Assembly (NCBI RefSeq): GCF_028826105.1
Contig: NZ_JAQGPL010000001.1
Location: forward strand, 4,118,501 to 4,182,500
Origin: Paenibacillus humicola
GTDB lineage: Bacteria; Bacillota; Bacilli; Paenibacillales; Paenibacillaceae
DNA: 64,000 bases
Direction of reading: 5' to 3'
Positions 40,845-63,056 of the stretch are shown here, in pieces (positions within the stretch are counted from its first letter, which is position 1; the number at the start of each line of letters is the position of its first letter). Under the pieces are notes generated by a model, which made no database searches, had not been told where the DNA came from, and saw nothing but the letters and a program-made list of their open reading frames with translations. The position numbers were made by a program, and so were the translations under genes.

Positions 40845-42338
40845 TTATAAGCGGTCGTTGTCATAAGCTGTCAGCGGCTCCAGCAAAGCCAGGAAGCCGC
40901 GCTCGTACAGGCGGGCGTACCGGCTGTGCCGGGCGGGATCCGGCACGATGCGCCTGACGCCCGGACGCGGTACCGCATGGCAGGCTTCGCGCAGCGAGCC
41001 GAAGACGCCGGCTCCGGCGCCGGCGGCCAGCGCCGCCCCAAGCAGGGCCGCCTCGGCCGTATCGGGTACGGTCAGCGTAATACCCGACACGTCGGCTTTG
41101 ATCTGCAGCCAGACGCGGTTGCGGGTACCGCCGCCGACGACGCTCAGCCCTTCGATCGGCCTGCCCGCAACCCCCTGCGCGCTCCGCCGCATCAGCTCCA
41201 GCTGAAAAGCGTTCCCTTCCAGCACCGCTCTCAGCAGTTCGCCTTTGCCGTGCTTTCCCGTCAGCCCGACGAACGCCGCTTTGGCCGACGGCTGGAGCCG
41301 CGGGGCGTCGCTGCCCGACAAGTAAGGAAAATAAAGGATGCCGGTCGGTCCGGGCTCGGTCGCTTCGAGCAGCTCCATCAACCCCTCGTAACTCAGGCTG
41401 CCGTCTCCGATCGTTTCGCGCAGCCATTCGACGGAGCCGCCGGACGAGGAGTGCCCGCCCATCCAGAACATCCGGTCCGACGCCGGATGGAGCCCGAACG
41501 ACAAGCCGGATTCGTAATCCGCCGTCTCCAGCCGGCGCCGCGGAAAGGTGCCGGCCAGCGTCTCCGCGGTTCCCATCGAGTTATACGCTTCCCCTTCCAC
41601 GAGCATGCAGGCGAGCGAAGCGCATATGTGATCGTGGCCGCCGAGGCAGACGACGGTATCCGCGTTCAGACCGAGCGTTTCCGTGCCGGCCGCCGCAGCG
41701 GTCCCGACAACGGCTCCCGCGGGCACCACGTCCGGAAACAGCTCCGGCGCAAGGCCGAAATGCCGGATCAGCGGCACATTCCAGCCGCGGCTGTCGATCC
41801 GGTACACGAACGTGCGGGCGGCCAGCGTTTCGTCCTCGGCGACCCGGCCGGTCAGACGATAGGCGATATAGGCGGACACGGACAGCCATACGGCGCCGCG
41901 AAAGGCATGCGACTCCCGCTCGCGAAGCCAGAGCAGCTTAGGCAGCCCGAATTTAAACGAAGCGTGCAGTCCGGTTTGGCAAAAATGCTCGCGCGCGTCG
42001 ATTTCGTCCCGCACCGCTTCCGCATGCGGGGCCGAGCAAGTCTCGAACCACGGCATAATCGGCGACCGCGCTTCGCCGCTAACGGGATCGAGCAGAAGCC
42101 CGCTTTCGGCCATGCTCGTCACCCCGACGGCCCGGACCGACGGGCTGCCGGCGGCCGCGGTGACGTCGCGGATTAACGCGGCCGCCGTTTCCCACAGCCG
42201 CTGCGGGTCGTAAACGACCGTCCCCTCCGGTCCGTTCGTCTTCGCATTCGGCCGCTGGGCCTGCGATACGGCGGTGCCGTCCTCGCGGAAAAGCCCCGCC
42301 TTAATATTCGTCGTGCCGATATCGATGGCAAGCAGCAT
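40845..42338 (-). CDS. FGGY-family carbohydrate kinase (last gene of the catabolic operon)
   Basis: This 497-residue FGGY kinase phosphorylates an unknown sugar or polyol. It has the N-terminal phosphate loop AIDIGTTNIKAGLF, GVTSMAESGLLLD, the GGHDHICAS motif with catalytic Asp, GTAETLAGT and the C-terminal adenosine motif SVVGGGTRNRVWLQIKADV. The GGHDH motif and the xylulokinase-like layout do not identify the substrate. Start codons ATG at 42338 and 42350 are both possible; the SD-like AAAGG fits the former. It follows the FAD oxidoreductase by 77 bases and may act on that enzyme's product. Confidence 0.85.
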   Translation of the reverse strand: MLLAIDIGTTNIKAGLFREDGTAVSQAQRPNAKTNGPEGTVVYDPQRLWETAAALIRDVTAAAGSPSVRAVGVTSMAESGLLLDPVSGEARSPIMPWFETCSAPHAEAVRDEIDAREHFCQTGLHASFKFGLPKLLWLRERESHAFRGAVWLSVSAYIAYRLTGRVAEDETLAARTFVYRIDSRGWNVPLIRHFGLAPELFPDVVPAGAVVGTAAAAGTETLGLNADTVVCLGGHDHICASLACMLVEGEAYNSMGTAETLAGTFPRRRLETADYESGLSFGLHPASDRMFWMGGHSSSGGSVEWLRETIGDGSLSYEGLMELLEATEPGPTGILYFPYLSGSDAPRLQPSAKAAFVGLTGKHGKGELLRAVLEGNAFQLELMRRSAQGVAGRPIEGLSVVGGGTRNRVWLQIKADVSGITLTVPDTAEAALLGAALAAGAGAGVFGSLREACHAVPRPGVRRIVPDPARHSRYARLYERGFLALLEPLTAYDNDRL

Positions 42339-42415
42339 GACGGTATTCATCCTTTCTTTCGCCGGTAACCGGATTTGCGAGAATGCTTCGCCCGATCCGG
42401 CGGCCGGCTTTCGAT

Positions 42416-45400
42416 TTAATCCGTTCCTTCCACCTGCCGCAAAAGCGATTCGCTGTTCGTCTCCAGGTCGAGACGGATGTCCAAAGGCCGGGGCTGCAGT
42501 TCCGGCCCGGCGGATGCCAGCCATTCACGCCACGCAGCCGGGTCTTTGCCGAAGGGCATGCCGCTCAGCCGCCGGAGCGTCAGGAGCGCCTGCCTGGCAA
42601 GCAGCGAACGCGCGTCGGCCAAATAGCCGATCAGTGTTTCGAAGCCTTCCGGACGGCCGCAGGCGGCCATCGCCCGGCCGATGGCAAGCTCGAGCATCGC
42701 CCGCCGCTCCAGGAAATAATCCTGCTGGTACCCCTGCCCCGACTGCTGCCCGTTCAAGTATGGAATCCGGTGAAGGCGTTCCAGCGCCGGCACCGCATCC
42801 GGGTCTCCTAGCCGTTCCGCGCCTTGGCAAACCGCGTCGATATAATAATAAATGCCTTTCCAGGTATCTTTAAAATCGTCTTCGTCCGGCTTGAGCAGCC
42901 CGGCGACGCGTTCCCAGACGGGAATGCTCCGCCGGTCCTTCGTCTGCGCGAGCGAGTACAGCAGGTATGCCGCGTCGGGCATCGCGCCGTGATCGGGAGG
43001 CAGCTGCACATACATAATCTCCGCCGAGCGCGACGGAAGCTCCGTCCCGCTCAGCTCCGACAAAATCGCCTCGATCAAAACCGGCGCTCCCGCATTCGAG
43101 CCGAACATGGCGAGCGCCTGCGCCAGGCGGATTCGGCGCAGGCCGTCCGCACGCCCAAGCGCCCGTTCCAGAAACGGCACGATGCGCGGGCCGACCGAGC
43201 AAATTTCGGCAAACGGAATCGGCCCTTCGTAAACTTCGTTCATCCGCATGTTGGAATACTCATATAACGGCTTGTCGGCTTCGATCGATTCGACGAGCCG
43301 CTCCAAATCGCCGTCGCGGTATCGAATCGGCCGCAGCGTCCGCTCGGCCGTTCGTTCCGCGAGCAGCCCTTCGGCTGCGAGCCGGCGCTGCAGCCGCTTC
43401 AGGTCGACGGCGCGCAGCGGCATACCGGTGCAGACCGCCTGCACGGCGGCCAATGCGGCCGCCGCGCCCAGATTTTCCAGGTCCGCCTGCATACGGATCG
43501 CCGGCAGTGCATCGTGCGTCGCCGAAACGGCTTTGCCCGCGACGAGCATCCCGTCCAGCCCTTGCGGAAGCAGCATCCGGTACGGGATCTCGATTTCGAG
43601 GTTCGGCGGAATGAGGCCGATATTGACCCAGTCTGCGCCACTGACGCCCTTGACGTCGTGATTGCTGAAATGGACGTTGATGACGTCCGGCCATTTGCGG
43701 TGGAGCAGCTGGTCGGTCAGCTTCATCACGACGTCGCCTTTGATATGGCGGCTTTCGCGGGTCGCCACATAGATGCCATGGTCGTGCGTATTCGTCCCGC
43801 GCCTGCGGCCGGCCAGGATGGCGCGCGTGTAATCGAGCGCATTCGAAACGTCAACCATGCTCGTAAAATTGTTCTGGATTTTATCCGGAGACGTGTACTG
43901 CGCAAGCGAATACCACATTACGGTATGGTCCTTCTCCGAGCCGTAGACGAAATCCGCTCCGGCGAACGCCGCCAGATCGCCGTCGCCGGTCGCATCGACG
44001 ACCGCCTCGGCCAGTACCGCCTTCGGCCCCCAGCAGGTGGCGACGACCGCGCCTTTCGCACGGCTGCCCTGCATGACGACGCCGAAGGTAACCGCGTTCA
44101 GGATCAGCTCGACGCCGCCGTTTACCGCCTTTTCGAGCAGGACGTGCATTTTCGCCTCGATGCTCCATTTGTGCCCCTTGTAACGCAGCTCCCGCTGCAG
44201 CGCCAGCACCGCTTCCTGTATGCGGGCTGCGAAGCCGGCCTTGCGTCCGAACCAGTAGCTGTCGACGCCGCCGAATGTGCCCGTTCCGCCGAGACCCGGA
44301 TTCAGGTCGACAAGAGCGGTGCGGACCCCTTCGCCCGCGGCCGTGTACGATGCGCAAGCGCCGCTGGATCCGCCGCCCGCGACCAGCACGCCGACGGAAG
44401 CCAGCACCGGAACCGCCGATGCCGGAACCTCGGCAAGCGGACCGGTCTCTTCGCTACCCGGCGAAGGGATGCGGATCACCGCTTGGTCGTCGTGAGAGGC
44501 GGCATCGGCTCCGGCCGGGCAGACCGTATCAAAGCTTTTCCCCGGCTTTGCTCGAGGGCTTTCGGCGGTTTCGGCGCGCAGCAGACGGTCTCCGGCAGCC
44601 GCTCCTTTTTCCGGCGGCTGCGGTCCGTCTGCGGCGCTCAACCCTTCCAGCCTCGACGCTTCCGCCAGCAGCCTGCCGACATGCTCGCCTGCCGCCGCGG
44701 CGCCGACCGGACCTTGCGGAGCGGCCCAGCCCAGACGGTAAAAAGCTTTGTTCAGCGAATACACGCCCGGTACGTCGGCGGCCGCCGGCTCCGGCAGCGG
44801 CGGGATCCGGTCCGTGCGCGGTCCGCTAAGCGGATAAGGCCCTGCCAGCTCGTGCGAGGATGAGGCAAGCACCGCTTTGCGAAACGCCGGCTCCCGCTGC
44901 AGCAGATGGACGGCGAGCCTCATGCCGCGGCGGCGAGCCTCGATTTCGCGGTCCCGGCTTGCTTCGAGGCTGTTGGCGCCCGGCAGCTCCAGCGCATACT
45001 CGGCATACAGGTGACCGCCGCCTCTGTACCCCTGCCGCAGCCGGACTTCGTCATTCAAAACGCCGATGTCCGCCGGAACGCCAAACCTCCGGTATCCGCC
45101 CGACACCGCCGCGCCTTCGCCCGGTAAGCCCGCTTCCGGGTCGGCATCGACGAACTCCAGCGTCCGCGCGTATACGGCGGTACTTCCCGGCGCGAAGCGG
45201 GAAACGTCCTCGCCGCACAGCGTGCACGCGATTGACGTTTCAGTCGCGTCGACGATGAGCCGGGCGTCGATCAGCTGCCTCCCGGATTTGTTGGCGATCA
45301 CGACGCCGGCGGCTTTCCCCTCGCGGAGCACAATGGAAACCGGGAGAGAAGCGTACAGAAAGCGGACGCCGGCCGATTCGAGCCGGTCTTCCAAACCGCG

Positions 45401-45736
45401 CTTCAACAGGTCGGGGTACAGCGCGATATATTCGCCGGTGAAACGGCCGCTGCCGGCAGCGAAAGCGCTTAGCCCTTCACCGGCGGCTCGCTGCTCGTTA
45501 ATAAGATGCGCGATCAGGTCCGGCAGCGGCTGCGTCTCCTCCGCCGCGTCCAGCCAGGGGCGAAGCGTCGCCGTCAGCTCGCGGCCCATATACGTCCGCG
45601 GCTCGACCAGCCAGACGCGCTTTCCCCCTTTCGCCAGTTCCAGTGCGCACGCGATGCCGGCAAGCGACCCGCCGAGCACGGCGGCATCGGCTTCGCCGAG
45701 CACCGGAATGTTCGCTTTGCCGATCTGAAGATTCAT
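42416..45736 (-). CDS. Giant FAD-dependent oxidoreductase: two FAD-binding halves plus HEAT-like repeats
   Basis: This 1106-residue protein contains two FAD_oxidored-type Rossmann units. The first dinucleotide loop is VLGGSLAGIACALELA (20-35), with DATETSIA at 163-170; the second is VAGGGSSGACASYTAAGEGV (452-471), with LGGTGTFGG (482-490) and DATGDGDLAAF later. A low-complexity linker (about 368-440) joins them. The second half runs to YRMLLPQGLDGMLVAGKAVS. The last 280 residues are helical pairs (RIRLAQALAMFGSNAGAPVL) resembling HEAT/PBS-lyase repeats. Single FAD_oxidored proteins are common in polysaccharide-use loci; this duplication is unusual. No signal peptide, so cytosolic. GGGGAGG lies 9 bases before the ATG. 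Confidence 0.8.
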   Translation of the reverse strand: MNLQIGKANIPVLGEADAAVLGGSLAGIACALELAKGGKRVWLVEPRTYMGRELTATLRPWLDAAEETQPLPDLIAHLINEQRAAGEGLSAFAAGSGRFTGEYIALYPDLLKRGLEDRLESAGVRFLYASLPVSIVLREGKAAGVVIANKSGRQLIDARLIVDATETSIACTLCGEDVSRFAPGSTAVYARTLEFVDADPEAGLPGEGAAVSGGYRRFGVPADIGVLNDEVRLRQGYRGGGHLYAEYALELPGANSLEASRDREIEARRRGMRLAVHLLQREPAFRKAVLASSSHELAGPYPLSGPRTDRIPPLPEPAAADVPGVYSLNKAFYRLGWAAPQGPVGAAAAGEHVGRLLAEASRLEGLSAADGPQPPEKGAAAGDRLLRAETAESPRAKPGKSFDTVCPAGADAASHDDQAVIRIPSPGSEETGPLAEVPASAVPVLASVGVLVAGGGSSGACASYTAAGEGVRTALVDLNPGLGGTGTFGGVDSYWFGRKAGFAARIQEAVLALQRELRYKGHKWSIEAKMHVLLEKAVNGGVELILNAVTFGVVMQGSRAKGAVVATCWGPKAVLAEAVVDATGDGDLAAFAGADFVYGSEKDHTVMWYSLAQYTSPDKIQNNFTSMVDVSNALDYTRAILAGRRRGTNTHDHGIYVATRESRHIKGDVVMKLTDQLLHRKWPDVINVHFSNHDVKGVSGADWVNIGLIPPNLEIEIPYRMLLPQGLDGMLVAGKAVSATHDALPAIRMQADLENLGAAAALAAVQAVCTGMPLRAVDLKRLQRRLAAEGLLAERTAERTLRPIRYRDGDLERLVESIEADKPLYEYSNMRMNEVYEGPIPFAEICSVGPRIVPFLERALGRADGLRRIRLAQALAMFGSNAGAPVLIEAILSELSGTELPSRSAEIMYVQLPPDHGAMPDAAYLLYSLAQTKDRRSIPVWERVAGLLKPDEDDFKDTWKGIYYYIDAVCQGAERLGDPDAVPALERLHRIPYLNGQQSGQGYQQDYFLERRAMLELAIGRAMAACGRPEGFETLIGYLADARSLLARQALLTLRRLSGMPFGKDPAAWREWLASAGPELQPRPLDIRLDLETNSESLLRQVEGTD

Positions 45737-45871
45737 GCCATCATTCCTCCCCATTCCTTGCGGCGGACATTCGTCCGGTCAAGCGCGGACCTGCCGCTCC
45801 GGCCGACCGGCCAATCACGTCTTTTACCGCAGCTTTCGGGATTCGTCCGTTCCGTTCCCCGGCCGCGCGAA

Positions 45872-45899
45872 CAGAACGGGCGGCACGCCGCCCGTTCTG
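45872..45899 (-). other. Very stable intercistronic hairpin
   Basis: A 13-bp perfect stem (45872-45884 with 45887-45899) with only two loop bases lies between the alpha-galactosidase and FAD-oxidoreductase genes. There is no T-run on either strand; mRNA processing or stabilisation is more likely than termination. Confidence 0.5.
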
Positions 45900-45930
45900 C
45901 GCGAATCCGAACGGCACGGCGGCCTTTCGT

Positions 45931-48087
45931 TCATTTTGACAGCCTGATTTCGATTTGCACGGACCCGCCCTCCGGCCGGTCCGCATTCGTTTCGTAGAGA
46001 TCATCGCCGATTCGCTCTAAGGCAGCTGCCTGCCCGTTGACCGTCACCTGCACGGGGACGGTGCGCGAAGCGAAGATGAACCGTCCGCCTTCGCGGAGCG
46101 ATACCGCCGTGACGTCTTCCTGCTCGGTGCAGCTTAACACCGCCGCAGGCGAAACGTATTTGTCCGCGAGTCCGATCGGTGTGACCGCGCCTTTGACGGG
46201 AACGAGAACATACAACGCAAAACCGCCTTCTTCTAGGCGAACGGCTTTGCTCTCCTCCGCTTTCAAATAAGAGAAGCTGCGGGAGAAATGCTCGTAGACC
46301 GCAAACTCGTTCCCCGCGAGCCCCGGCACATCGGCCGGTCCGATGCCGCCTTCAACCGGACCGGCCTCCTTGTGAATATGGAAAGCGGCCACGACACCGG
46401 CGCCCGCCGCCGTATTCCACAGCTTGAGCGGGATCGTCCGCTCGGTCGGATCAGCCAGCAGGCAATCCGGCGACGGGGCGGCCGGGCCGTCGCAGCGGAT
46501 TATCGTGCCGTCGCGGTAAATAAGCGGCCAAATATGCGCTGGATCTGTATTGCCCGGCGCGTCACTGACATACACCGGCCCGCCGCTGACCGAACGCAGG
46601 ACGGCGCTCTGGACGCCGTCGTGATTTTTCGACCAGTACATATCCCAGTCGCCCCAATAAAACGCGCCATGATAATAAGAATTGTACCCGTTCTGAAGCG
46701 CATGCTCGGGGAAGCCGCGCTTTTCCTGCGGGACGAAATCGTCGCTGTTTCGCGAAACCGCGGATTTCGGACGGTGCCATACGTTTTCGGCCGCCATTCC
46801 CATGCAGTTGATCACCGTATCGTTAAAATGCAGCGCGACCGACGCTTCCAACGCTTCGTGCGCCGCCGCGGCCGCCTCGCCGATCGAACGGCGTTCCTTC
46901 AGATAATTGAGCACGGCGCTTTGACTGTCGACTTTGACGAAATCGACGCCCTGCCGCCGCAGAAAGCCGTGCCACGCGTGCCAGAAGCCGAAGCCCCGGC
47001 CCGCCTCGGGATACGGAATGAGATTGCCCCGCGGCACCCGGTAAAGCGATTCGGCGTACTTTGTCGCAATGCCGCTGTCCTCATGGACGCCGCCCCAATA
47101 GCCGGCAATCGTATGCCAGACGCCGACGTGCCGGATGCCGAAGCGCTCCTTGAGCGCAGTCACGGCCCGTTTCAGGCCGCCGGGAAATTTGACGGGGTCG
47201 GCCTCGAACGACATCAGCCTGCCGTCCTTCGTTTCGGACCAGCCGTCGTCGATCATGACCCAGCCGACCGGCAGACCGAGCTGCTGCAGCTCTTCCGCCT
47301 TGGCCAGCAGCCCCGCTTCGTCGACCTTATGGTAGAAGGCATCCCAGCTGCACCAACCGAGCCTGTCCAGCAGCGCGGGATACGTTTTTCGGCTGCGCGG
47401 CAGCGTCGGGTAGTCCAGCTCGCGAAGAGCCGACTCCGCATTTTGCTCCACCAGCGCGTACGGGTCGTTTCCTGCAGACAGCGCAAATGCGAGCGATTCG
47501 CATGCGGTGCGGCCGCTTTCATAAGCGGACAGCCGAATCGCGAAGCCGCCGCTTGCTCCCGCGGCATCCGTCCGCCAGACCGGCCCGACGACCGGCAGCA
47601 GATGAAAGAAGCTTTCGGCCGTCTTCCACAAAATCGACTGCGTCCGTCCGGGCAGCTCTTCCGGATTCGCGCCGAAGTGGGGGCGTGTCCACCAATCCTT
47701 ATGCTGATAATTGGCCATTAGACCTTCAATCGCTTCCGCCGGACGGACCGTCACGACAATGGCGTGCTCGGCGGCGAACGTCCTCTGTTTGCCGAAATCG
47801 TTATCATTCACCGTTTCCGCTTCGACCGACGCCAGAACGGCCCCGCGGCCGGTCATGCGCAAGCGAATCCGGGCGCGGACGGTATCGTCGTCGTTTTGAA
47901 ACCGCCAAACCGCCGTATCGAGAGCACCGTCCCGGTCATCGCCTCGTTCCAGCTCCGTTCCGCACGCCTTCAGCGCGATCGGCTGCGGATGCGAATCTAG
48001 CCTCACCTCGACCTCGAACGTGCCGAAGACGTCGGCCTGCGGATTGCTTCGGGAGCGCAGCTCCCCTTTTTCGCTGAATTCGAACAT
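45931..48087 (-). CDS. Alpha-galactosidase / raffinose-synthase-like GH36 (Sip1 family)
   Basis: This 718-residue glycosidase of the Sip1/raffinose-synthase branch of clan GH-D has GWCSWDAF (244-251), WVMIDDGW, the nucleophile motif FVKVDSQSA (Asp387), and the acid/base region RNSDDF (Asp449 or 450), plus N- and C-terminal beta domains. It probably releases alpha-linked galactose from an oligosaccharide. It lacks a signal peptide, so the substrate must be imported. ATG with AGGAGG 5 bases upstream. It follows the ROK kinase gene by 35 bases. Confidence 0.85.
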   Translation of the reverse strand: MFEFSEKGELRSRSNPQADVFGTFEVEVRLDSHPQPIALKACGTELERGDDRDGALDTAVWRFQNDDDTVRARIRLRMTGRGAVLASVEAETVNDNDFGKQRTFAAEHAIVVTVRPAEAIEGLMANYQHKDWWTRPHFGANPEELPGRTQSILWKTAESFFHLLPVVGPVWRTDAAGASGGFAIRLSAYESGRTACESLAFALSAGNDPYALVEQNAESALRELDYPTLPRSRKTYPALLDRLGWCSWDAFYHKVDEAGLLAKAEELQQLGLPVGWVMIDDGWSETKDGRLMSFEADPVKFPGGLKRAVTALKERFGIRHVGVWHTIAGYWGGVHEDSGIATKYAESLYRVPRGNLIPYPEAGRGFGFWHAWHGFLRRQGVDFVKVDSQSAVLNYLKERRSIGEAAAAAHEALEASVALHFNDTVINCMGMAAENVWHRPKSAVSRNSDDFVPQEKRGFPEHALQNGYNSYYHGAFYWGDWDMYWSKNHDGVQSAVLRSVSGGPVYVSDAPGNTDPAHIWPLIYRDGTIIRCDGPAAPSPDCLLADPTERTIPLKLWNTAAGAGVVAAFHIHKEAGPVEGGIGPADVPGLAGNEFAVYEHFSRSFSYLKAEESKAVRLEEGGFALYVLVPVKGAVTPIGLADKYVSPAAVLSCTEQEDVTAVSLREGGRFIFASRTVPVQVTVNGQAAALERIGDDLYETNADRPEGGSVQIEIRLSK

Positions 48088-48122
48088 AAGCTCCTCCTGC
48101 CTGCTTCAAATGGTACGGCCGG

Positions 48123-49094
48123 TTATTCCAACGCCTGCAGCGCCACCGACAAGCTGGCCGCATCGCCGACCGATTCGCCGAGCCCCGATGGGACGATCTC
48201 GCACGCCTGCAGCGAAATCGGCAGCGCTTCGCTCGCAAGAGCCTCCATGACGATCGGCCGCAGCAGCGCCTCTTGTCTCGCGTAAATGCTGCCGATCACG
48301 ATCCGCTCGGGGTTCAAAAGATCGACCAGCACGGCAAGTCCTCTGCCAAGCCGGGTGCCGACGGCGTCGACCACCTTCAGCGCAAGCGCATCGCCTGCAG
48401 CCGCGGCTTCGAATATCGTCTTCGCGGTAACGGCGTCCAGCTGTTCCAGTCCCCGGCAAAAGGCGGTTCGGCCGCCGCCCCGGATATGCGCTTCGGCCAT
48501 CAAACGGCCGAGCCGCGCAATGCCGCCGCCGCTGCAAAAGCCTTCGAACGAGCCCGCCTTGCCGTAGCCGACCGGTCCGTCCGGCTCCAGCCGCATATGC
48601 CCGACTTCGCCTGCCATATCGTTTGCGCCGGAGTAGAGCTTCCCGTTTAAAATGAGGCCGGCGCCCATGCCGGTGCCGAACGTCAGAAACACGACGTCGG
48701 ACGCGCCGCGGCCGGCACCCCAGCGCCATTCGGCGAGCGCGCAGGCGTTGGCGTCGTTCTGCAGCGCCACCGGTACGCCGAACCGCTCCTTCAGCGGCGT
48801 CACGACGTCGATCCGGTCCCAGCCCGGCAAATTGGGCGGAGACAGAACGAGCCCGCGGCGGCTGTCGAGCGGCCCGCCGCAGCTGATGCCGATGGCTTGC
48901 AGCGGCCCGGCCCCGCCTGCGACCCGCTGCATGTCGGCCATCGCCTCGCAGAACCAGCCGATCGTCGCCTCCGCGGTTTCGGGCGTCGGGAAGCTGCGCT
49001 TCTCGGCGATGTTCACACGGCCGTCTTCGGCGACGCCGAGCACCGCGGCGCACTTGGTGCCGCCGATATCGAACCCTCCAAGCAGCATGCTCAT
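48123..49094 (-). CDS. ROK-family sugar kinase without the usual zinc motif
   Basis: This 323-residue ROK protein has GGFDIGGTKCAAVLG (ATP-binding), ISCGGPLDSRRG, LQNDANACALAEWRWGAG (catalytic Asp), FGTGMGAGLIL and AGEVGHMRL (sugar contact Glu and His). The CxCGxxGCxE zinc box is replaced by GYGKAGSFEGFCSGGG, retaining one Cys. There is no N-terminal helix-turn-helix, so it is a kinase rather than a repressor. It may phosphorylate the mannose or galactose released by the neighbouring glycosidases. The ATG at 49094 overlaps the SIS gene by 4 bases. Confidence 0.88.
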   Translation of the reverse strand: MSMLLGGFDIGGTKCAAVLGVAEDGRVNIAEKRSFPTPETAEATIGWFCEAMADMQRVAGGAGPLQAIGISCGGPLDSRRGLVLSPPNLPGWDRIDVVTPLKERFGVPVALQNDANACALAEWRWGAGRGASDVVFLTFGTGMGAGLILNGKLYSGANDMAGEVGHMRLEPDGPVGYGKAGSFEGFCSGGGIARLGRLMAEAHIRGGGRTAFCRGLEQLDAVTAKTIFEAAAAGDALALKVVDAVGTRLGRGLAVLVDLLNPERIVIGSIYARQEALLRPIVMEALASEALPISLQACEIVPSGLGESVGDAASLSVALQALE

Positions 49095-49720: not shown

Positions 49721-49763
49721 CGCGTGTTCACATCCCCGTTATCGTTCTAGTCGCTTCCGCGCG

Positions 49764-53226: not shown

Positions 53227-53278
53227 AGTCTCCCTCTGTCCTCTCCAATAAAAGCTATTCTACTCCGTGCCTGATTGT

Positions 53279-53968: not shown

Positions 53969-53974
53969 CTTGTT

Positions 53975-55345: not shown

Positions 55346-55378
55346 GCTGACCCTTCACCTCCGGTTGATAGCTTGATA

Positions 55379-57430
55379 TCAGCCGCTCTGCGCCGGCTGC
55401 AAATTCAGCGCATCCGCATAGGCCGCCGCCTCCTGGGCCGCATACAGAATGAGCCCGATGCACCACGAATGCGACAGCGTCAGCATCATGCCTTTCGGCT
55501 GAAAGCAGTTCGTGTTGTAGTAGCGCTCCGTCACCATGCCTTTATACGCGTTGAAGTCGCCGTCCTCCCGCGCGATGAACTGCAGGAAGCAGGCGATATG
55601 GTCGCGGGTCCGGTCCAGATAGTAAGCGTCCTGCGTATACGTCCATAACCGGAGCATTTCCGGCACGCAGAACAGGCCGTAGTTGTGCAGATGCTGGTTG
55701 GACGTCGACGCCTGGTCCGCGCCGCGCGAGCGAAAATCGTACTGTGCGAGCAGCGTATGGCGCGGAAACCGCAGGTTGTACGTCCATCTGAACGTCATCA
55801 TCCAGTCGGCCGCGCTCGAAGCGAGCGCGAGCCATTCGGTCCGCTTATCGGACTCGTACAGCCGTACGTAGGCAACGACGGCGTTGTACGCATCTTCGGA
55901 GGTCGGCGTCAGATGGACGTCCTCGGGCGCGCCGTAAATATATTCGTCTTTCACGAAACGGGCGTAATAATGACCGGCTTTCGCCGCCGCTGCGGCAAAA
56001 TCCTGCCTGCCGAAAAAATCCGCCCCTTCGAGCAGCGCGGCAATCCATAAGATGCCGCCCGCGCCGTCCCATTCCTCGACCTCGCCGGTCGCGGCATTGT
56101 AATAGGAGCCGAAATTGCCGTCCTCCCGCTGATGCGAGGCCGCGAATTCCAGGTTGGACCGCACGGCCGTCTCCCATTCGGGATGCTTCTCGCCGCGTTC
56201 CCGCTCGAAAGCGAGCGCGCGCGTCATGAACAGCGTCGCTTCCGCGATCGTACGTGCCTGCAGCCAGTCGGATTTCGGGTTCCACCCTGCGGTCCAGCCT
56301 TTGCCGACGATCCAGGACGCCCAGAAAATGCCGCTCGGCGAAAGTCCGGATGCGATTTTATCCAGCACGGCCGCGCCCGCTTCCGTATAGGCCGCAATCC
56401 CTTTGCGGAGCCCGTAAGCCAGCAGCGCGTAAGCGTACGGCGCGCCGCTCACCCAGCCGACGTGCATATGGGGACGATCGCCCATCCCTTTCACATTGTT
56501 GTTGAATTCGCGGTCGAACGCCGCCGTCTCATACAAGATTTTATGCTCGTCGCTGTAATGCCACGTATGAAGGCCGTAAGCGGTCAGCTCGGCCGCTTCC
56601 TCCAGTCCCATCCACGGGTTCAGCCCGTGCTCGGCGCCATGAAGCCGATACATTCTGCGCACGAACGGATCGTAGGCATGCGGATCGGCATCCGCGGCAT
56701 AGACGGTCAGATTGAGCCGGATGCGCTGCCCCGGTACGAACCGGGCCGTCGTCCGGTCCGCCGGCTTCGGCACGGCGTCGCCGACGAAGGTGACCGGCTC
56801 CTCCCGGTACGGGTAATTCAGCCAGATCGACGTGCCGTCCGCGCTGCCCCGGAAGCCGAGGCCCGTCAGGCCCAGCTCCGACATCTCGTCCGTACACAAT
56901 GCGCCGCACATGCCGTCGTTCCATGCGAACACCGCCGGCAGCGCGGCACGGTCCGAACGGAACGACCAATGGTCCGACACCATTTGGTCCCTATCGCCGC
57001 CGTTATAATCGTAGCGGGGATAGCGGCGCAAATTTTTTTCGAACCGGTTCTCCTTATAGAAAGCGCCGGGAATCATCCAGTCCGGCCGGCCCGGTCCGGC
57101 AAGCTCGCAGCCGAACGTCAGCCCGAATTCGGCGGGTTCGGCTCCCCGGTAAACCATCTCCAGGCCGACCTCGTAACCGCCGCATTCGCCGTCCAGCGCC
57201 GTCCACCTCGCTTCGGCCTCGAACGACGCGGAAGCTCCCGATACCCGAAGCCCATCTTCCCCGTCCGGGGCCAGCTCCGCGATCGGCACCTCCTCGCTTT
57301 CGCCGGTTGCAGCGTTCCAGGCTTCGACCAGCCGGCCAAAGCGCATGAAGAACGGGCCGCCTTCCTTCCCCGGCTCGTAAACCCGCAGCTCATAGCGGCC
57401 GCCCGATTGTTCGGCTCTCCATCCCATCAT
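55379..57430 (-). CDS. Putative alpha/alpha-toroid glycosidase or lyase, family not recognised
   Basis: This 683-residue protein has an N-terminal beta-rich half (about 1-270) and a C-terminal half with repeating helical pairs (LTAYGLHTWHYSDEHKI, YALLAYGLRKGIAAYTEAGA, LEFAASHQREDGNFGSYYNA, WMMTFRWTYNLRFPRHTLLA). Asp/Glu and aromatic residues line several of these, as in six-hairpin glycosidases and unsaturated glucuronyl hydrolases. I do not recognise the family. No signal peptide is visible. The ATG at 57430 has GGGGG 6 bases upstream; another ATG follows directly. The operon position favours action on an imported oligosaccharide. Confidence 0.65.
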   Translation of the reverse strand: MMGWRAEQSGGRYELRVYEPGKEGGPFFMRFGRLVEAWNAATGESEEVPIAELAPDGEDGLRVSGASASFEAEARWTALDGECGGYEVGLEMVYRGAEPAEFGLTFGCELAGPGRPDWMIPGAFYKENRFEKNLRRYPRYDYNGGDRDQMVSDHWSFRSDRAALPAVFAWNDGMCGALCTDEMSELGLTGLGFRGSADGTSIWLNYPYREEPVTFVGDAVPKPADRTTARFVPGQRIRLNLTVYAADADPHAYDPFVRRMYRLHGAEHGLNPWMGLEEAAELTAYGLHTWHYSDEHKILYETAAFDREFNNNVKGMGDRPHMHVGWVSGAPYAYALLAYGLRKGIAAYTEAGAAVLDKIASGLSPSGIFWASWIVGKGWTAGWNPKSDWLQARTIAEATLFMTRALAFERERGEKHPEWETAVRSNLEFAASHQREDGNFGSYYNAATGEVEEWDGAGGILWIAALLEGADFFGRQDFAAAAAKAGHYYARFVKDEYIYGAPEDVHLTPTSEDAYNAVVAYVRLYESDKRTEWLALASSAADWMMTFRWTYNLRFPRHTLLAQYDFRSRGADQASTSNQHLHNYGLFCVPEMLRLWTYTQDAYYLDRTRDHIACFLQFIAREDGDFNAYKGMVTERYYNTNCFQPKGMMLTLSHSWCIGLILYAAQEAAAYADALNLQPAQSG

Positions 57431-57452
57431 CTTAAACCCCCGATCCCTGGAC

Positions 57453-58706
57453 TTAAAGCTTCAGCTTGTACAGCTCGATCAGATTGTCCCGGAAGATCCG
57501 GTCCGCAAACGTCATCGCCGCCTTCTCCGTCATCGCGCCTTCCGCCACTTTTTCCGTGAGCACGTCGGCAACGATTTTGCGCGCCAGCTTCAGGTGGGCG
57601 TAAGTCCCCTCGATATGATTATAGTCGCCGCCGAAGCCTTGAATTTTCGTCTCCGGCACCATTTCGATCATCTGGTGCAAAATTTGCTTGCCCGCCGTCG
57701 GGGAAATGATATACGTCCACGTGAAATCCGTATAAACGTTCGGATAATTTTTCGCGATGCTTAAATACGGCTCGAAATACGGAAATCCGCAGTGCAGCAG
57801 CACGAATTTGGCGTCGGTATACTCCGCAAGCAGCGGAAGCAGCTTCGAAGCGTCCGAATTCGGGATGAGGTTGCCGTTCCCCGAGACGCTCGTTTCATGA
57901 TGGCCGGTATGAATTTGAATCGGCAGATCGTAGGCGATGGAGCGCTGGATAATAAAATGAATGAGATAGTCCTGAAGAGCGACCGTTTCCTGCTGCGAAA
58001 GCCCGTCTTCGAGCGTCAGGCCGAGCAGCCGGTTGAATACGGCCTCCGCTTCCTGAAAGGTCGGCTTGCCGCTGGCCAGCGTGCGCCAATAAGCGTGTCC
58101 GAGCTTCGTCGCCACCATGCCGTCCTGCTTGAATTTATGCAATAAGGCATCCACCGCATCCAAATAGCCCGCGAGCGTATGCACGTTCGTCCGCGCGCTT
58201 CTTGCAACCTCGTGGATATCCTTCCGTGTTCGCAGCTTATAGGTAAAGTCCAAAAACATGATCGGCCGGAACAGCTCGTATTCCAGCTTCGTCGTCTGAA
58301 TCAGCGTAAAAGCAAGGTCGATTCCCGACTTCTCGGATAACACTTCGCGATACCAATCCGGATTGTGCGTCGCCGCTTTCACTTTCTCGTTCACGGCCAA
58401 AATGCCGCTAACGCTCCAATCGTCGAACCCGTACAGGTCGCGCATCGCCGTCCGGAACATGCGCGCGTAGGTCGTATTGCCCGTTCTCTGCCAATATTTC
58501 AAAAAAACGGAAGCTCTTTCTTCGTCGCTGCCGGCATTTCTTCCGAGTGCGCCTCTCTCCATTCCGGCCGTCACGAGATCGGAATCCAGGTAGTGCATCA
58601 GCGAGAAAAAATCATGGTTCTCTTTTTTGCGAATTTGCGGGGTCGCCAGATGCTCGTGTCCGTCAATGACCCGAAGCTCGTTGATATATTCGTGTATGGT
58701 GCTCAC
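57453..58706 (-). CDS. Amidohydrolase-superfamily protein resembling uronate isomerase
   Basis: This 417-residue TIM-barrel protein has the metal pair in VIDGHEHLATP (His17, His19), a later LPIQIHTGHHETSVSG (metal His), VLLHCGFPYFEPYL and IQGFGGDYNHIEG (metal Asp). The layout resembles uronate isomerase (UxaC-like) and amidohydrolase-2 proteins. It could isomerise a uronic acid or hydrolyse a lactone; the usual UxaC motifs are not convincing enough for a name. Start is GTG at 58706, 10 bases from GGAAGGAG. It is the first gene after the attenuator hairpin. Confidence 0.75.
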   Translation of the reverse strand: MSTIHEYINELRVIDGHEHLATPQIRKKENHDFFSLMHYLDSDLVTAGMERGALGRNAGSDEERASVFLKYWQRTGNTTYARMFRTAMRDLYGFDDWSVSGILAVNEKVKAATHNPDWYREVLSEKSGIDLAFTLIQTTKLEYELFRPIMFLDFTYKLRTRKDIHEVARSARTNVHTLAGYLDAVDALLHKFKQDGMVATKLGHAYWRTLASGKPTFQEAEAVFNRLLGLTLEDGLSQQETVALQDYLIHFIIQRSIAYDLPIQIHTGHHETSVSGNGNLIPNSDASKLLPLLAEYTDAKFVLLHCGFPYFEPYLSIAKNYPNVYTDFTWTYIISPTAGKQILHQMIEMVPETKIQGFGGDYNHIEGTYAHLKLARKIVADVLTEKVAEGAMTEKAAMTFADRIFRDNLIELYKLKL

Positions 58707-58723
58707 CTTGGCCCTTCTCCTTC

Positions 58724-58762
58724 CAAAAATGGGGCGACTGCTCCCGTAACAGAAGCAGTCGC
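58724..58762 (-). terminator. Attenuator-like terminator between binding-protein and enzyme genes
   Basis: Stem GCGACTGCT/AGCAGTCGC (58734-58742 with 58754-58762), 11-base loop, followed on the minus strand by CCCATTTTTGG. As it lies inside a colinear operon, partial read-through would keep the sugar-binding protein in excess over the enzymes. Confidence 0.7.
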
Positions 58763-58776
58763 ACCGATGCTGTCGA

Positions 58777-60117
58777 TTAATCTACGTTAAGCTCCGGGAA
58801 GGCATTCTTGACTTCCTTCTTGAATGCCGCTACGACATCGTCGAAGCTTTTGTTGTTCGTAATGCCGTCGCCGGCTACCGTTCTCCACTTGCTCAGGATG
58901 TCCTCGCCGTATTTATCGGCTTTGAGCGGCGGAATGTTTTTGACCGTGTTATAGTACGGAACGAGGATGTTCTCGTCGCCGAAGAGCGGCGATTTGAACG
59001 TCGTCAGGTTGTTCTCGTACACTTTGGCGTTGCCCGGCATGTTGCCCGTTTTCTCCAAATTGTGCTGCTGCCATTCCACGCCGGCGATATATTTGATGAA
59101 TTCGTACGCCAGCGCTTTGTTCGGCGACTTGTCGTAGATGCCGCGGTACGTGCCGCCTTCATAGAAGCCTTCCGGCGTAGCGGCGACACCGTATTTGCCG
59201 TTCGCCTTATTGTCCTTGTTGTCGACCATAAAGCCAGCCCACGCCGGCATCGAGGTCAGCACGACGCTGCCGTCGTTAAGCGCGTTGCCCCAGCCTGCGG
59301 ACATGAACGGAAGCTTGGCGTCCACGTTGTTTTGGCGGATTTTCAGCTGCGTTTCGTAAATCGTTTTCCATTTCGGATCGATGTTCAGCTTGCCGTCCTT
59401 CACCCAAGGCTGGGTGTTGTACGCCTCGATGTCAAACAGGTCGCCGGCATTTTGAATCAGATGCTCTTTGCCGCCGCTTTCGGCTGCGACATTTTTGCCG
59501 AGGTCGATGATTTTATCCCAGCTGTTCACCATGTCGCCGATTTTTTTCGGATCGTCCGTGCCGAGATATTTCTTGGCGACGTCGCGGAGGTACCAGAAGC
59601 CTCCCGGCGAAGAGTGGTCGGACACGGCGCGCAGCTTGCCGTCCTCGGAGTAACCCAGTTCCTTCACGTACGGAATGTAGTCCTTCACCAGGTCGTCTCC
59701 GCCCATTGCGGACAGGTCGGTCAGAAATTTGGAATTGATGAACTTGCCGATGTAGCCGCGCTCCAGGTCAAAAATATCCGGCACATCGCGGCCGGATTGC
59801 AGCGCCGTCAGCAGCTTCGTTTGATACTGGTCGCCCGGGAACAATTTCACGTCGATCGTGACGCCCGGATTTTTCGCATGGAACTGATCGGCCATGTCTT
59901 TGACCTGATCGAAGAACGTCCAGATGACCAGATGGCCCTTCAGCTCCTGCGCGCCGCCGGTATCGCCCGTTTGGCCGCCCGCATTCGTCGAACCGCCGCC
60001 GGCTGCGCCGTTATCGGCACCGCCCGTAGAATTGTTTCCGTTTTTGCCGCCGCAGGCCGCGAGCACGGTGACCAGGATGACGGACATGACCAATAGGAGC
60101 CATTTTCTCGTTTTCAA
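58777..60117 (-). CDS. Extracellular sugar-binding lipoprotein of an ABC transporter
   Basis: This 446-residue family 1 solute-binding protein has a basic start, a hydrophobic stretch and lipobox LAAC (Cys near 22), then a Gly/Asn/Ser-rich spacer and the binding fold (IWTFFDQVKDMADQFHAKNP; VPDIFDLERGYIGKFI). The start is TTG at 60117, 7 bases from AAGGGGAG; the ATG twelve codons upstream has no site. It follows two permease genes and captures the oligosaccharide outside the cell. Confidence 0.92.
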   Translation of the reverse strand: MKTRKWLLLVMSVILVTVLAACGGKNGNNSTGGADNGAAGGGSTNAGGQTGDTGGAQELKGHLVIWTFFDQVKDMADQFHAKNPGVTIDVKLFPGDQYQTKLLTALQSGRDVPDIFDLERGYIGKFINSKFLTDLSAMGGDDLVKDYIPYVKELGYSEDGKLRAVSDHSSPGGFWYLRDVAKKYLGTDDPKKIGDMVNSWDKIIDLGKNVAAESGGKEHLIQNAGDLFDIEAYNTQPWVKDGKLNIDPKWKTIYETQLKIRQNNVDAKLPFMSAGWGNALNDGSVVLTSMPAWAGFMVDNKDNKANGKYGVAATPEGFYEGGTYRGIYDKSPNKALAYEFIKYIAGVEWQQHNLEKTGNMPGNAKVYENNLTTFKSPLFGDENILVPYYNTVKNIPPLKADKYGEDILSKWRTVAGDGITNNKSFDDVVAAFKKEVKNAFPELNVD

Positions 60118-60268
60118 AACCGTTCTCCCCTTACATCGATTAGTGAACTGCACATGCTGTGGAATGACCCTCGTTTACGTTAACGCTTCTTGATGGATGG
60201 GCTTACCCGCCTCTTCCGCAAGCATCACCTCTTTCGATGGAGTAAGTCCGGGTGCCGCGAGCCGCCTG

Positions 60269-61090
60269 TCAGCCTTTCACCGCGCCTGCGGCAACGCCGT
60301 CGATAATCCGCTTTGACATAAAGGAGAAGAAGACGAGCACCGGCACGACGGCGATGACGATACCGACATATTGGGCGCCGAAGTCGGACGTAAACTGCGA
60401 CTTCAGGCTGGCGATCATGACCGGCAGCGTCTGCAGGTTGTTATCGAACAGCACGATCAGCGGCGTCAGAAAATCGTTCCATTTTCCGATAAACGCGAAG
60501 ATGCCGAGCGTCGCCAGTGCCGGACTCATGATCGGGAGCACGATCCGGTTGAAAATTTGCAGCTCGCCGTAGCCGTCCACCCGCCCCGACTCGACGATTT
60601 CGGTCGGCACCGACGAATCCGCGAACTGCCGCATCAGGAAGATGCCGAATGCGTTATAGATCGACGGCAGGATGAGCGGCCAGTACGTGTTGAGCATGTC
60701 AAACGAGTCCATCAGCTTATAGAAGCCGATGATGCCGAGCTGGCCCGGGATCATCATCGTGCCGAGCACGAACAGAAACAGGAAGTTCCGGTAGCGGAAA
60801 CGGTATTTCGAGAATCCGTAGCCGGCCAGAGCGGCGAAGTAGACGTTGATGATCGTCGACGTAACCGTAATGAACAGCGTGTTCGCGAATCCCCGCCAAA
60901 TATTGACCGTATTTTTCAGCCGCTCGTAATTGTCGAGAAACTGGTCCCCCGGGATGAGCAGCAGCTTGCGGGCGATATCCGAATTGGTGTGCGTCGACGT
61001 GATGATCATGCTGTAGAACGGCAGCAGGCACGTCGCCGCAACGACGATGAGAAACAGATACAGGATGCTTCTCGTGATGATTTTGGTCAT
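60269..61090 (-). CDS. Carbohydrate ABC transporter permease, MalG type
   Basis: This 273-residue permease has six transmembrane helices and the EAA-like loop SVPTEIVESGRVDGYGELQI followed by VLPIMSPALATLG, which contacts the ATPase. LPFYSMIITSTHTNS near the N-terminus is typical of the MalG/LacG class. AGGAGG is 9 bases before the ATG. Transporters of this class use a separately encoded MsmX/UgpC ATPase, and none is present here. Confidence 0.92.
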   Translation of the reverse strand: MTKIITRSILYLFLIVVAATCLLPFYSMIITSTHTNSDIARKLLLIPGDQFLDNYERLKNTVNIWRGFANTLFITVTSTIINVYFAALAGYGFSKYRFRYRNFLFLFVLGTMMIPGQLGIIGFYKLMDSFDMLNTYWPLILPSIYNAFGIFLMRQFADSSVPTEIVESGRVDGYGELQIFNRIVLPIMSPALATLGIFAFIGKWNDFLTPLIVLFDNNLQTLPVMIASLKSQFTSDFGAQYVGIVIAVVPVLVFFSFMSKRIIDGVAAGAVKG

Positions 61091-61103
61091 GCGCGTTCGC
61101 CTC

Positions 61104-61976
61104 CTATTCCCTCAGCTTCGAGGCTCTGGCGGTAATGGCCGTAAAAAACATGACGACGATGAATATCCCGTATGCGACCGCTGCGCCGTAGCTGTAATCG
61201 AAGTTTTTGAATGCCGTCTCGTATAAATACATGACCATGGTACGGCCCGTATTGTTCGGTCCGTCTCCGAGGATGAGCGGCGCGTCGAACAGCTGCAGCC
61301 CGCCGATGACCGAGGTGATGAACACGAACAGAAACACCGGCCTGAGAAGCGGCAGCGTAATATGAAGCGCCGTCTGCGTCTTCGTCGCGCCGTCCACCTC
61401 CGCCGCCTCGTACACCTCGCTTGGGATCGACTGCAGGCCCGCGATAAAGACGATCATGTTGAAGCCGAAATACTGCCAGGCGATGACCCCGGAAGCGATG
61501 ATCCGCGACCACCAGGCGCTGTTGAACCAGTTGACGGGATCCTGAACGATCCCCAGCGCCAGCAAAATTTTGTTGATGCTGCCGGTTTGCCAGTCGAACA
61601 TCAGGGCGAAAATGACGCCGAGCGTAACCGGCGTAATGATGTGCGGAAAGAAGTACACCGCACGGAAGAAATGCTTGCCCCGGATAAACTTCTCGTTCAG
61701 CACGAGCGCGAGCAGCAAAGCGGTAATGAGCTGCGGCGTGTTGGAAAACACCCAGATGATGAGCGTGTTCCAGATCGTCTGATAAAAGAAGCTGTCGTGC
61801 AGCAGCCGCGTATAGTTGGCCACCCCGACGAACACCGGGTCGCTAAAGCCGTCCCACTTCATGAAGCTTAAGTACAAGGTGTACAAAATCGGCGCCAGAC
61901 CGAAAACGGCAAATCCGATAAAGAAAGGCGCCACAAAGAAGTATCCGTAATACGATCTGTTCACCTTCGAGCCCAC
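61104..61976 (-). CDS. Carbohydrate ABC transporter permease, MalF type
   Basis: This 290-residue six-helix permease has VAPFFIGFAVFGLAPILYTL at the N-terminus and the EAA loop EVYEAAEVDGATKTQTALHI followed by TLPLLRPV. It starts with GTG at 61976, shortly after the lacI stop at 61994 and 13 bases before the next permease. It pairs with the MalG-type subunit to form the channel. Confidence 0.92.
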   Translation of the reverse strand: MGSKVNRSYYGYFFVAPFFIGFAVFGLAPILYTLYLSFMKWDGFSDPVFVGVANYTRLLHDSFFYQTIWNTLIIWVFSNTPQLITALLLALVLNEKFIRGKHFFRAVYFFPHIITPVTLGVIFALMFDWQTGSINKILLALGIVQDPVNWFNSAWWSRIIASGVIAWQYFGFNMIVFIAGLQSIPSEVYEAAEVDGATKTQTALHITLPLLRPVFLFVFITSVIGGLQLFDAPLILGDGPNNTGRTMVMYLYETAFKNFDYSYGAAVAYGIFIVVMFFTAITARASKLRE

Positions 61977-61993
61977 TCATCCTCACCTCTTCA

Positions 61994-63001
61994 CTATAAT
62001 TTTCCGCAGGAGTCGCGAATTATGAGCCTTGGTTTCAAAAGGAAATGATCCGCAGGTCCTTTGCCGCCTCCTTCGATTTTTTGCAGCAGGCCTTCGGCCG
62101 CTTTCATGCCGATATCCTGGAACGGCTGCCGGACCGTCGTGAGGGACGGGTACACCCATTCCGATATCGTAATGTCGTCGAAGCCGACGATCGACATCTG
62201 CTTCGGCACGTTGTGGTCGTATTCCTGGACGGCGCGCAGCGCGCCGATCGCCGTTTCGTCGTTCGAGCCGATGACCGCGGTAAAGCCGGCGGTTTCGAGC
62301 AGCTTCTTCATCGCTTTGTAACCGCCCTGATTGCTCCAGTCCGATTCGACGATCCAGTCTGCGTTATAGGTCAGCTGAAGCGCTTCCATTGCCTGCAAAT
62401 AGCCTTTCAGCCGGTATTTGTTGGCGGCTGCATGATCCGGACCGGTAATATACGCGATTTTCCGGTGGCCCAGGCCGTGCAAATATTCGACGATTTCGTA
62501 CACGCCCGCCGCGTTATCCACATCGACGGAGAAAATGTTGTCCATCTCGCCGTGGTCGCCGACCAGCGCGACCGGATAGCTGGAATCGCGGATTTGCTCC
62601 AGATTCGCTACGCTGCGCTTTTGGAAGCTGACGAGAATAACGCCGTCCACCTGCCCTTCGTACAGCAGATTGAGAAAGGATATCTCTTCGGCATAGTTGG
62701 AGGTCCAGCTCAGAAAGATGCAGTTATAGCCTTTCATATTGGCGACCCGCTCAATCCCGCGGATGATGCCGGAATAGAAAATGTTCGAAATGTTGTCTAC
62801 GACGACGGCGATGATATTCGTCCTGTCGAGCACCAGTCTGCGCGCGTTGGCGTTGCGGTGGAAATTAAGCTCCTTGATCGCTTTCTCCAGCGCTTCCTGC
62901 GTGGCCTTCTTCACTTTTTGCCCGTTCAAATACCGGGAGACGGTGCTTTTGGACGTGCCCGCAAGCCTTGCGACGTCATGAATGGTCGGTCCCATTGCCA
63001 T
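61994..63001 (-). CDS. LacI-family transcriptional repressor of the sugar island
   Basis: This 335-residue regulator has the N-terminal helix-turn-helix TIHDVARLAGTSKSTVSRYL, the hinge (RRLVLDRTNIIAVVVDNISN) and a periplasmic-binding-protein-like sensor domain (VDGVILVSFQ, HRKIAYITGP, VIGSNDETAIGALRAV, IVGFDDITISEWVYPSLTTV). It is the first gene of the operon and faces the operator array upstream. GGAAAGAG lies 2 bases before ATG 63001 and 8 before ATG 62995, so the start could be either. It likely binds GGGAACGTTCCC and is released by the imported sugar or its phosphate. Confidence 0.92.
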   Translation of the reverse strand: MAMGPTIHDVARLAGTSKSTVSRYLNGQKVKKATQEALEKAIKELNFHRNANARRLVLDRTNIIAVVVDNISNIFYSGIIRGIERVANMKGYNCIFLSWTSNYAEEISFLNLLYEGQVDGVILVSFQKRSVANLEQIRDSSYPVALVGDHGEMDNIFSVDVDNAAGVYEIVEYLHGLGHRKIAYITGPDHAAANKYRLKGYLQAMEALQLTYNADWIVESDWSNQGGYKAMKKLLETAGFTAVIGSNDETAIGALRAVQEYDHNVPKQMSIVGFDDITISEWVYPSLTTVRQPFQDIGMKAAEGLLQKIEGGGKGPADHFLLKPRLIIRDSCGKL

Positions 63002-63012
63002 CACTCTTTCCA

Positions 63013-63026: not shown

Positions 63027-63056
63027 GAACCCGGTTTTCTAATATCGCCTGATTTT

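Follow-up and report, generated by a model that had tools for sequence, protein, structure and literature searches.

A LacI-headed locus of Paenibacillus humicola with a dedicated candidate operator and a predicted role in the import and cytoplasmic breakdown of a mannose-containing oligosaccharide

Closest Described Systems

The closest described system found to combine an ATP-binding cassette (ABC) importer with GH38, ROK and GH20C proteins (GH, glycoside hydrolase) is the N-glycan locus of Streptococcus pneumoniae, which, in the part of the report available, holds the ABC-NG importer, a GH38 protein, a ROK protein and a GH20C protein (PMC5215778). A second point of reference is tetronate catabolism, for which the available part of the source describes an LtnD-OtnI-OtnK-OtnC route and an LtnD/2-OtnK/2-OtnC bypass (PMC12540250). 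The locus described here is a block of 15 colinear minus-strand genes at positions 40845-63001 of a 64,000-nucleotide stretch of the Paenibacillus humicola genome (contig NZ_JAQGPL010000001.1, positions 4,118,501 to 4,182,500; hereafter the window). With moderate confidence, we read it from its sequence as a LacI-autoregulated regulon for the import and cytoplasmic exo-hydrolysis of a mannose-containing, possibly acidic hetero-oligosaccharide.

Gene families were assigned by Pfam/NCBIfam scan. In transcription order the block encodes a LacI-family regulator (lacI), two ABC permeases (P1 and P2), a solute-binding protein (SBP), an amidohydrolase (AmidoH), a 683-residue protein of an uncharacterised family (U683), an FGGY sugar kinase (FGGY2), a member of the Asp/Glu-racemase superfamily (Race), a class II aldolase (Ald), a GH38 alpha-mannosidase, a SIS isomerase, a ROK sugar kinase, a Sip1/raffinose-synthase-type protein (Sip1), a double Rossmann oxidoreductase (FAD) and a further FGGY kinase (FGGY1). 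All of the families named in an earlier note on this DNA are present, in the order given there.

Like the S. pneumoniae locus as given in the available part of its report, the window pairs an ABC importer with GH38 and ROK proteins, and some relatives also carry GH20C; most of its partner families are absent here, none of the 15 window proteins having a Pfam match to GH125, GH92, GH29, GH85 or GH20C. To the pneumococcal set so described (PMC5215778), the window adds U683, AmidoH, Race, Ald, the FGGY kinases, SIS, Sip1, FAD and a lacI gene with its own palindrome. The resemblance to threonate/tetronate catabolism, as far as the available part of that source goes (PMC12540250), lies in OtnK- and OtnC-family genes in most related loci, in the membership of Ald in the 2-OtnC family and in the proximity of Race to DUF1537 kinases. 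The differences are that LtnD and OtnI families are lacking, that scores fall under the curated cut-offs, that the window is without OtnK and OtnC, and that the genes here stand together with glycosidases and an importer for glycosides. Galactosamine/tagatose routes (AgaR, KbaY/GatY aldolase) share the class II ketose-bisphosphate aldolase family and an AgaR-like DeoR regulator found in a sister locus. Unlike those routes, the 15 proteins include no PfkB-type kinase, and the window SIS protein is GmhA-like rather than AgaS-like. The claim of the earlier note to know no described pathway with this combination agrees with searches of an open-licence library, in which no paper was found that describes the gene set or joins glycan import to tetronate-type catabolism, subscription papers lying mostly outside the search.

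Organization and Conservation of the Gene Block

The layout is that of a LacI-regulated ABC sugar operon, with lacI first and the importer and catabolic genes colinear; with the starts chosen here, intergenic spacing ranges from -4 to 176 bp. The regulator (61994-63001) is followed by P1 (61104-61976) and P2 (60269-61090), both BPD_transp_1 permeases, and by SBP (58777-60153), an SBP_bac_1 protein. Export was judged by a crude hydropathy scan of the first 65 residues rather than by a signal-peptide predictor, and solely P1, P2 and SBP exceed a value of 2.0 in it, the peak of 1.97 in FAD falling at its Rossmann strand; the start of SBP is lipobox-like when read by eye. The glycosidases look cytoplasmic, in line with the earlier claim that the enzymes have no signal peptide.

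Conservation was assessed in 48 loci obtained by scanning genome contigs with a U683-homologue alignment, so that U683 is in all 48 by construction. Gene calls in relatives rest on similarity to proteins of the window or of other relatives, with longest-frame picks that include wrong-strand frames, and the counts of 26 and 27 relatives take each relative once. An uninterrupted run of six genes on a single strand, in the order lacI-P1-P2-SBP-AmidoH-U683, is found in 26 of the 48 loci, whose record titles name six genera (Paenibacillus, Cohnella, Bacillus, Neobacillus, Fictibacillus and Scopulibacillus), and 23 of these 26 go on into Race-Ald-GH38. Among the remaining 22 are short contigs, as well as loci in which a remote U683 homologue has other surroundings; 7 of a further 58 whole genomes treated as relatives hold a near end-to-end U683 match.

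Downstream of this core the block is less uniform. At E 1e-60, FGGY1 (40845-42350) is matched in 25 of the 26 genomes of six-gene loci and FAD in 17; in one of these 17, FAD belongs to an ABC-ROK-Sip1-FAD group apart from the block (L096). FGGY2 (53975-55345) is found in 15 of the 26 loci. The block of G002, a genome of the same genus (L064, L065), is present without FAD and FGGY2, which suggests that both are dispensable. The linkage on which the earlier note relied holds for the main block, whereas modules come apart in some genomes (L050, L096, L143 and L144).

Candidate Promoter and Operator, and a Hairpin

The earlier note placed the unit at 40845-63001, which is correct for the genes; the unit itself starts at about 63410, where a minus-strand promoter-like site (63382-63410; TTGACA-17-TATCAT, 11 of 12 consensus matches) lies upstream of lacI. 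This is the sole minus-strand site of its kind in 60200-64000, a region with 2 promoter-like sites found against 2.2 expected in shuffles. Between it and lacI the palindrome TGGGAACGTTCCCA occurs four times, twice exactly (63183-63196 and 63056-63069) and twice with one mismatch (63338-63351 and 63108-63121), the copy at 63338-63351 following the -10 hexamer by about 30 bp. The longer lacI frame would put the copy at 63056-63069 inside coding sequence, and its ATG at 63070 borders that copy; that start was therefore rejected and the ATG at 63001, the end that the earlier note gave for the block, is preferred.

The case for an operator is based on this tight cluster and on genome-wide counts, matches with up to three mismatches in the window numbering 5 against a chance mean of 2.23, with 4 of 100 shuffles reaching 5. 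The exact 12-mer core occurs at five places in the 5.93-Mb genome of the strain, four of them in this promoter region, and its reversed control at none. Exact copies of the 14-mer number 35 in the genomes of 27 relatives and come from 16 of these genomes, the control again giving none, and all 35 fall within the stretch fetched around U683. When up to two mismatches are allowed, a copy lies upstream of lacI in all 26 six-gene loci, although the two-mismatch copies in L034 and L037 could be chance. Relatives also carry copies inside the locus: in the interval from U683 to Race, in the OtnK/SIS stretch, ahead of FAD (L039 and L045) and ahead of P1 and of U683 (L040). The palindrome appears to be a dedicated operator at the promoter that is conserved in relatives, and the conserved gene order together with the locus-bound operator indicates that the 15 genes form one unit, which supports the LacI-headed catabolic unit with its own importer that the earlier note had proposed.

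The sole exact copy beyond the window locus in the strain's own genome is at C1:1912637 (L103:8638), approximately 480 bp upstream of apparent PHP, GDPD, LacI and ABC genes as read by eye; the LacI protein there carries the same SKSTVSR stretch.

A hairpin with a 13-pair stem lies behind SBP on the minus strand (58734-58762), and the same stem motif, searched as a fixed pattern, is found in the SBP-AmidoH gap of 14 of the 26 related loci. Terminator-like hairpins as a whole number 23 against 21.1 in shuffles, which is not above chance. The SBP hairpin is possibly a partial terminator or attenuator, or an RNA stabiliser, and its conservation would allow the importer and enzyme genes to differ in expression level.

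Glycosidases, U683 and AmidoH

The GH38 protein (49764-52193) scores above the Glyco_hydro_38N cut-off, its nearest chains in the PDB are Ams1 and related alpha-mannosidases, and it contains AHLDPVW, NVDSFGH and FHDI, which we take to be the catalytic motifs. Sip1 (45931-48087; Raffinose_syn, GH36-like) matches a plant galactinol-sucrose galactosyltransferase at E 4.5e-54.

U683 (55379-57430) has no Pfam match and no credible sequence match in the PDB, whether searched as a single sequence or as a profile (best profile E 0.12). Among 28 homologues scanned, 8 match GH127 and 8 match GH88, weakly (best E 1e-4 and 8e-4), a hint that U683 may be an (alpha/alpha)6 glycosidase. Profile comparison of U683 with GH88 and GH127 sets from relatives is not significant, but neither is that of GH88 with GH127, and some of the input frames were wrong, so that this comparison carries no weight either way. 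Of 8000 candidates scored, 358 proteins fall in the U683 family at an E value of 0.001 or lower, and the locus offers a genetic handle on this family.

AmidoH (57453-58706; Amidohydro_2) was described in the earlier note as uronate-isomerase-like, and remote homology to that family stands: the protein is profile-similar along most of its length to the uronate isomerases 2q01 and 1j5s (E 4.5e-16 and 6e-13; 2q08 is a further member), and its HxH, H266 and D361 align with like residues. It is nearer to 4i6v, whose function is unstated (3e-29), the order of profile matches in the PDB being 4i6v, then 2qpx, then uronate isomerases. Across 30 sequences HxH, H266 and H305 are invariant and D361 nearly so. 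A stronger claim, that AmidoH is a uronate isomerase, was rejected, as it scores 43.5 bits with the glucuronate isomerase model NF002794 (cut-off 387) and H305 is without a counterpart in 2q01 and 1j5s.

A Plausible Sugar-Acid Branch

In 22 of the 26 related loci, homologues of OtnC and OtnK (the latter a 3-oxo-tetronate kinase, the former its decarboxylase) are encoded between GH38 and SIS-ROK, and in a 23rd (L037) the pair lies further downstream (L095). No such pair is in view in the window or in L036, L042 and L050, so that two genes usual in relatives are missing from the window; of the genomes of the same genus that carry the block, the four inspected (G002, G004, G006 and G012) have the pair.

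Race (53279-53968; Asp_Glu_race) provides a second link to acid sugars. Asp/Glu racemases of the two-Cys type have two catalytic cysteines. The window protein has three cysteines, none of them after C92, and C85 alone is invariant among 30 aligned sequences; residue 193, presumably the place of the second catalytic cysteine, is Gln in all 30, with a Cys elsewhere after residue 115 in 4. Sequences containing a stop, and duplicates, were removed before this count and that of SIS below. Race thus appears not to be a two-Cys Asp/Glu racemase. A Race search of 59 genomes, including that of the strain itself, gave 21 with a match at E 0.001 or better, and nine flanking regions were inspected, eight from relatives and one (L085) from the strain's own genome. 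Race adjoins a DUF1537 kinase in L085, L148 and L149; in L150 the two are approximately 1.2 kb apart. PdxA-type genes are also present in L148 and L150. The own-genome region (L085:2705-8615; C1:1698704-1704614) holds ribose-type ABC importer genes together with a long DUF1537 kinase and a paralogue of Race (38%), and appears to be a minimal Race-DUF1537 operon. This racemase-superfamily clade, whose members have so far been placed only in the Asp/Glu racemase family, is tied to DUF1537 acid-sugar kinases in several operons, which offers a functional lead.

Ald (52306-53226; F_bP_aldolase) passes only the ketose-bisphosphate aldolase subfamily cut-off (TIGR00167). In the available part of the tetronate report, 2-OtnC, the 2-oxo-tetronate-4-phosphate decarboxylase, is an F_bP_aldolase protein, and 3-OtnC an Aldolase_II protein (PMC12540250). 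Together, the OtnK and OtnC genes, the Race-DUF1537 linkage and the F_bP_aldolase type of 2-OtnC make a sugar-acid branch likelier than plain ketose splitting, and such a branch is plausible in this system. The route proposed in the earlier note, in which a core sugar is isomerised, phosphorylated by an FGGY kinase and split by the aldolase, is possible but omits both the DUF1537 kinase and OtnC genes of 22 of 26 loci and the F_bP_aldolase protein reported, in that same portion of the source, as a decarboxylase (PMC12540250). Its further suggestion that the core sugar is oxidised would not describe a universal step, FAD having no match at E 1e-60 in 9 of the 26 genomes.

A related explanation dispenses with the acid branch altogether: the locus would serve the use of N-glycan fragments, FGGY1 and Ald splitting a neutral ketose of the fuculose, xylulose or rhamnulose type, ROK and SIS taking mannose or N-acetylhexosamine, and OtnK and OtnC being accessory. 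In its favour, the pneumococcal N-glycan locus, as far as the available part of its report goes, likewise combines an ABC importer with GH38 and ROK, and with the GH20C that some relatives have (PMC5215778). FGGY1 scores best with xylulokinase, at 232 bits (below the cut-off of 380), L056 has an FGGY gene in the neighbourhood of a rhamnosidase and a relative of Ald (35%), and GH2 and NagA genes occur in or beside a sister locus described below. We nevertheless regard this explanation as unlikely, since it leaves the OtnC-OtnK genes of 22 of 26 loci and the Race-DUF1537 linkage unexplained, and the absence of GH125, GH92, GH29 and GH85 Pfam matches from the 15 proteins also counts against it.

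Five of the inspected Race regions (L143 to L147) are sister loci of the system. In L143 and L144 the arrangement is Race-FGGY1-MBL2-DeoR-SIS-ROK-ABC2, and none of U683, AmidoH and Ald is in view; in L145, L146 and L147, Race and Ald are accompanied by a protein of the metallo-beta-lactamase (MBL) type and by GH38, again with no AmidoH in view. L146 continues, on the same contig and through overlapping ranges, into L073 (OtnC-OtnK-SIS-ROK-Sip1-FAD-GH20C-U683), so U683 there goes with the MBL-type protein. The arrangement of L143 and L144 fits a further explanation, in which two or more independent pathways (mannoside hydrolysis and sugar-acid catabolism) share one regulator and no molecule, as do the AmidoH-U683-GH38-SIS-ROK-FAD group of L050, which is without Race, Ald and FGGY1, and the occurrence of ABC-ROK-Sip1-FAD apart from the block in L096. 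Against such a mixed-substrate operon, which we judge improbable, the exact operator is confined to this locus in the genomes of 16 relatives, and the same modules reappear in several arrangements.

Proposed Pathway

Under the regulon proposed above for a mannose-containing oligosaccharide, LacI would control a single promoter by binding up to four operator copies, and SBP, P1 and P2 would take up the oligosaccharide. In the cytoplasm, alpha-mannose would be stripped by GH38 and alpha-galactose-type caps by Sip1, and U683 would remove a third residue, which may be a uronic acid. The freed hexose would be phosphorylated by ROK (48123-49094) and converted to a ketose phosphate by SIS (49091-49720; SIS_2), a GmhA-like protein in which the presumed zinc ligands of GmhA, H53, E57, Q189 and H197, do not vary across 33 sequences. 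AmidoH, possibly replaced in sister loci by an MBL-fold hydrolase, may open or isomerise the remaining acidic core. Race, FGGY1 and Ald would process this core to dihydroxyacetone phosphate, joined in most relatives by OtnK and OtnC. FAD (42416-45754; 1112 residues, PF12831, with a HEAT-like stretch) could add an optional oxidation step. The window strain has lost, or never had, in-locus OtnK and OtnC, so that its acid branch would either stop early or depend on genes elsewhere.

More tentatively, and as a possibility rather than an expectation, this may be an undescribed pathway of Bacillales in which acidic mannosyl-oligosaccharides are imported whole and stripped by U683 as a new GH family. 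The acid core would pass to a one-cysteine racemase-fold isomerase in the place of OtnI and then, by way of DUF1537/OtnC or an F_bP_aldolase-type decarboxylase, to dihydroxyacetone phosphate, with AmidoH and MBL proteins as alternative ring-openers. If the acid branch is true, glycan import would be joined to tetronate-type catabolism. The locus is in any case a well-bounded target for discovery, in which a single regulator and operator go with one importer and eleven enzymes, and the same block is present in six named genera.

Several observations weigh against this account. With respect to the acid branch, no match for a DUF1537 kinase or an Aldolase_II-type OtnC was found in the window by tblastn, the best OtnK relative in the strain's own genome is 31% identical, and an OtnC relative there (58%) lies in another operon, with OiaK/OiaX-like genes and a TRAP (tripartite ATP-independent periplasmic) transporter. 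No LtnD or OtnI family was found among the 15 window proteins by Pfam/NCBIfam scan. In the members scanned, the relatives' OtnK reaches 275 bits (cut-off 350) and OtnC 124 (cut-off 250), and their substrate may therefore not be tetronate. AmidoH and a double MBL protein occur together in G068 and G071, which speaks against a simple replacement of one by the other. With respect to a single regulated unit, FAD and FGGY2 are variable rather than universal members, the exact operator is absent from 11 of the 27 relatives' genomes, and the strain itself has one exact copy away from the locus. The hairpin after SBP and the internal operators of relatives suggest that the unit may be several transcripts.

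The stretch of the own genome that holds the OtnC homologue (L084:3839-11972; C1:379838-387971) comprises an OiaX-like gene of the RuBisCO fold, an OiaK-like kinase, a TRAP transporter and the OtnC homologue (C1:387309); its Oia scores are 463 and 465, both below the cut-off of 700.

Sister Locus and the Glycan

A sister locus in the strain's own genome (C1:2454260-2465532; L156:8261-19533) has the order SBP2-P1b-P2b-Ald-MBL-GH38-GH2-DeoR, with identities of 72% for Ald, 58% for MBL, 74% for GH38, 58% for GH2 and 69% for DeoR. The DeoR regulator is AgaR-like (215 bits, below the cut-off of 260), and a NagA gene (340 bits, cut-off 226) lies beside the locus on the other strand (C1:2466431-2467591; L158:1432-2592). 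In some relatives GH2, DeoR, GH20C, a PF07555 beta-N-acetylglucosaminidase, NagA or a second importer is found beside the block, GH20C occurring in 5 of the 48 loci, also in L073 and L075, and further downstream in L090-L093. The GH38, GH2 and NagA genes of the sister locus and the N-acetylhexosamine genes of relatives point to mannose with N-acetylhexosamine as the best hint at the glycan.

A similar set of sugars would suit the head group of plant glycosyl inositol phosphoryl ceramide (GIPC) sphingolipids, which has the form mannose/galactose-glucosamine (or N-acetylglucosamine)-glucuronic acid-inositol. U683 would then be a glucuronidase, AmidoH a uronate isomerase, and Gfo/Idh and AP_endonuc_2-type proteins would act on the cyclitol. 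The sugars fit GH38, Sip1, NagA and the kinship of AmidoH to uronate isomerases, and the Gfo/Idh protein of some relatives has inositol dehydrogenase as its best NCBIfam model (85 bits, cut-off 355). The use of GIPC head groups is nonetheless very improbable, as the Gfo/Idh and AP_endonuc_2 genes are present only in some relatives and absent from the window operon, and nothing supports U683 as a glucuronidase. Xanthan degradation was set aside, there being no polysaccharide lyase match among the 15 proteins.

In the 8 genomes in which the halves of FAD are matched separately, the N-terminal half is 41-66% and the C-terminal half 60-76% identical to those of the window. Elsewhere in the window, two long frames overlap on opposite strands at 32692-36549; the minus-strand frame encodes DNA polymerase III alpha, and the 1261-residue plus-strand frame, which has no Pfam/NCBIfam match, is probably its shadow.

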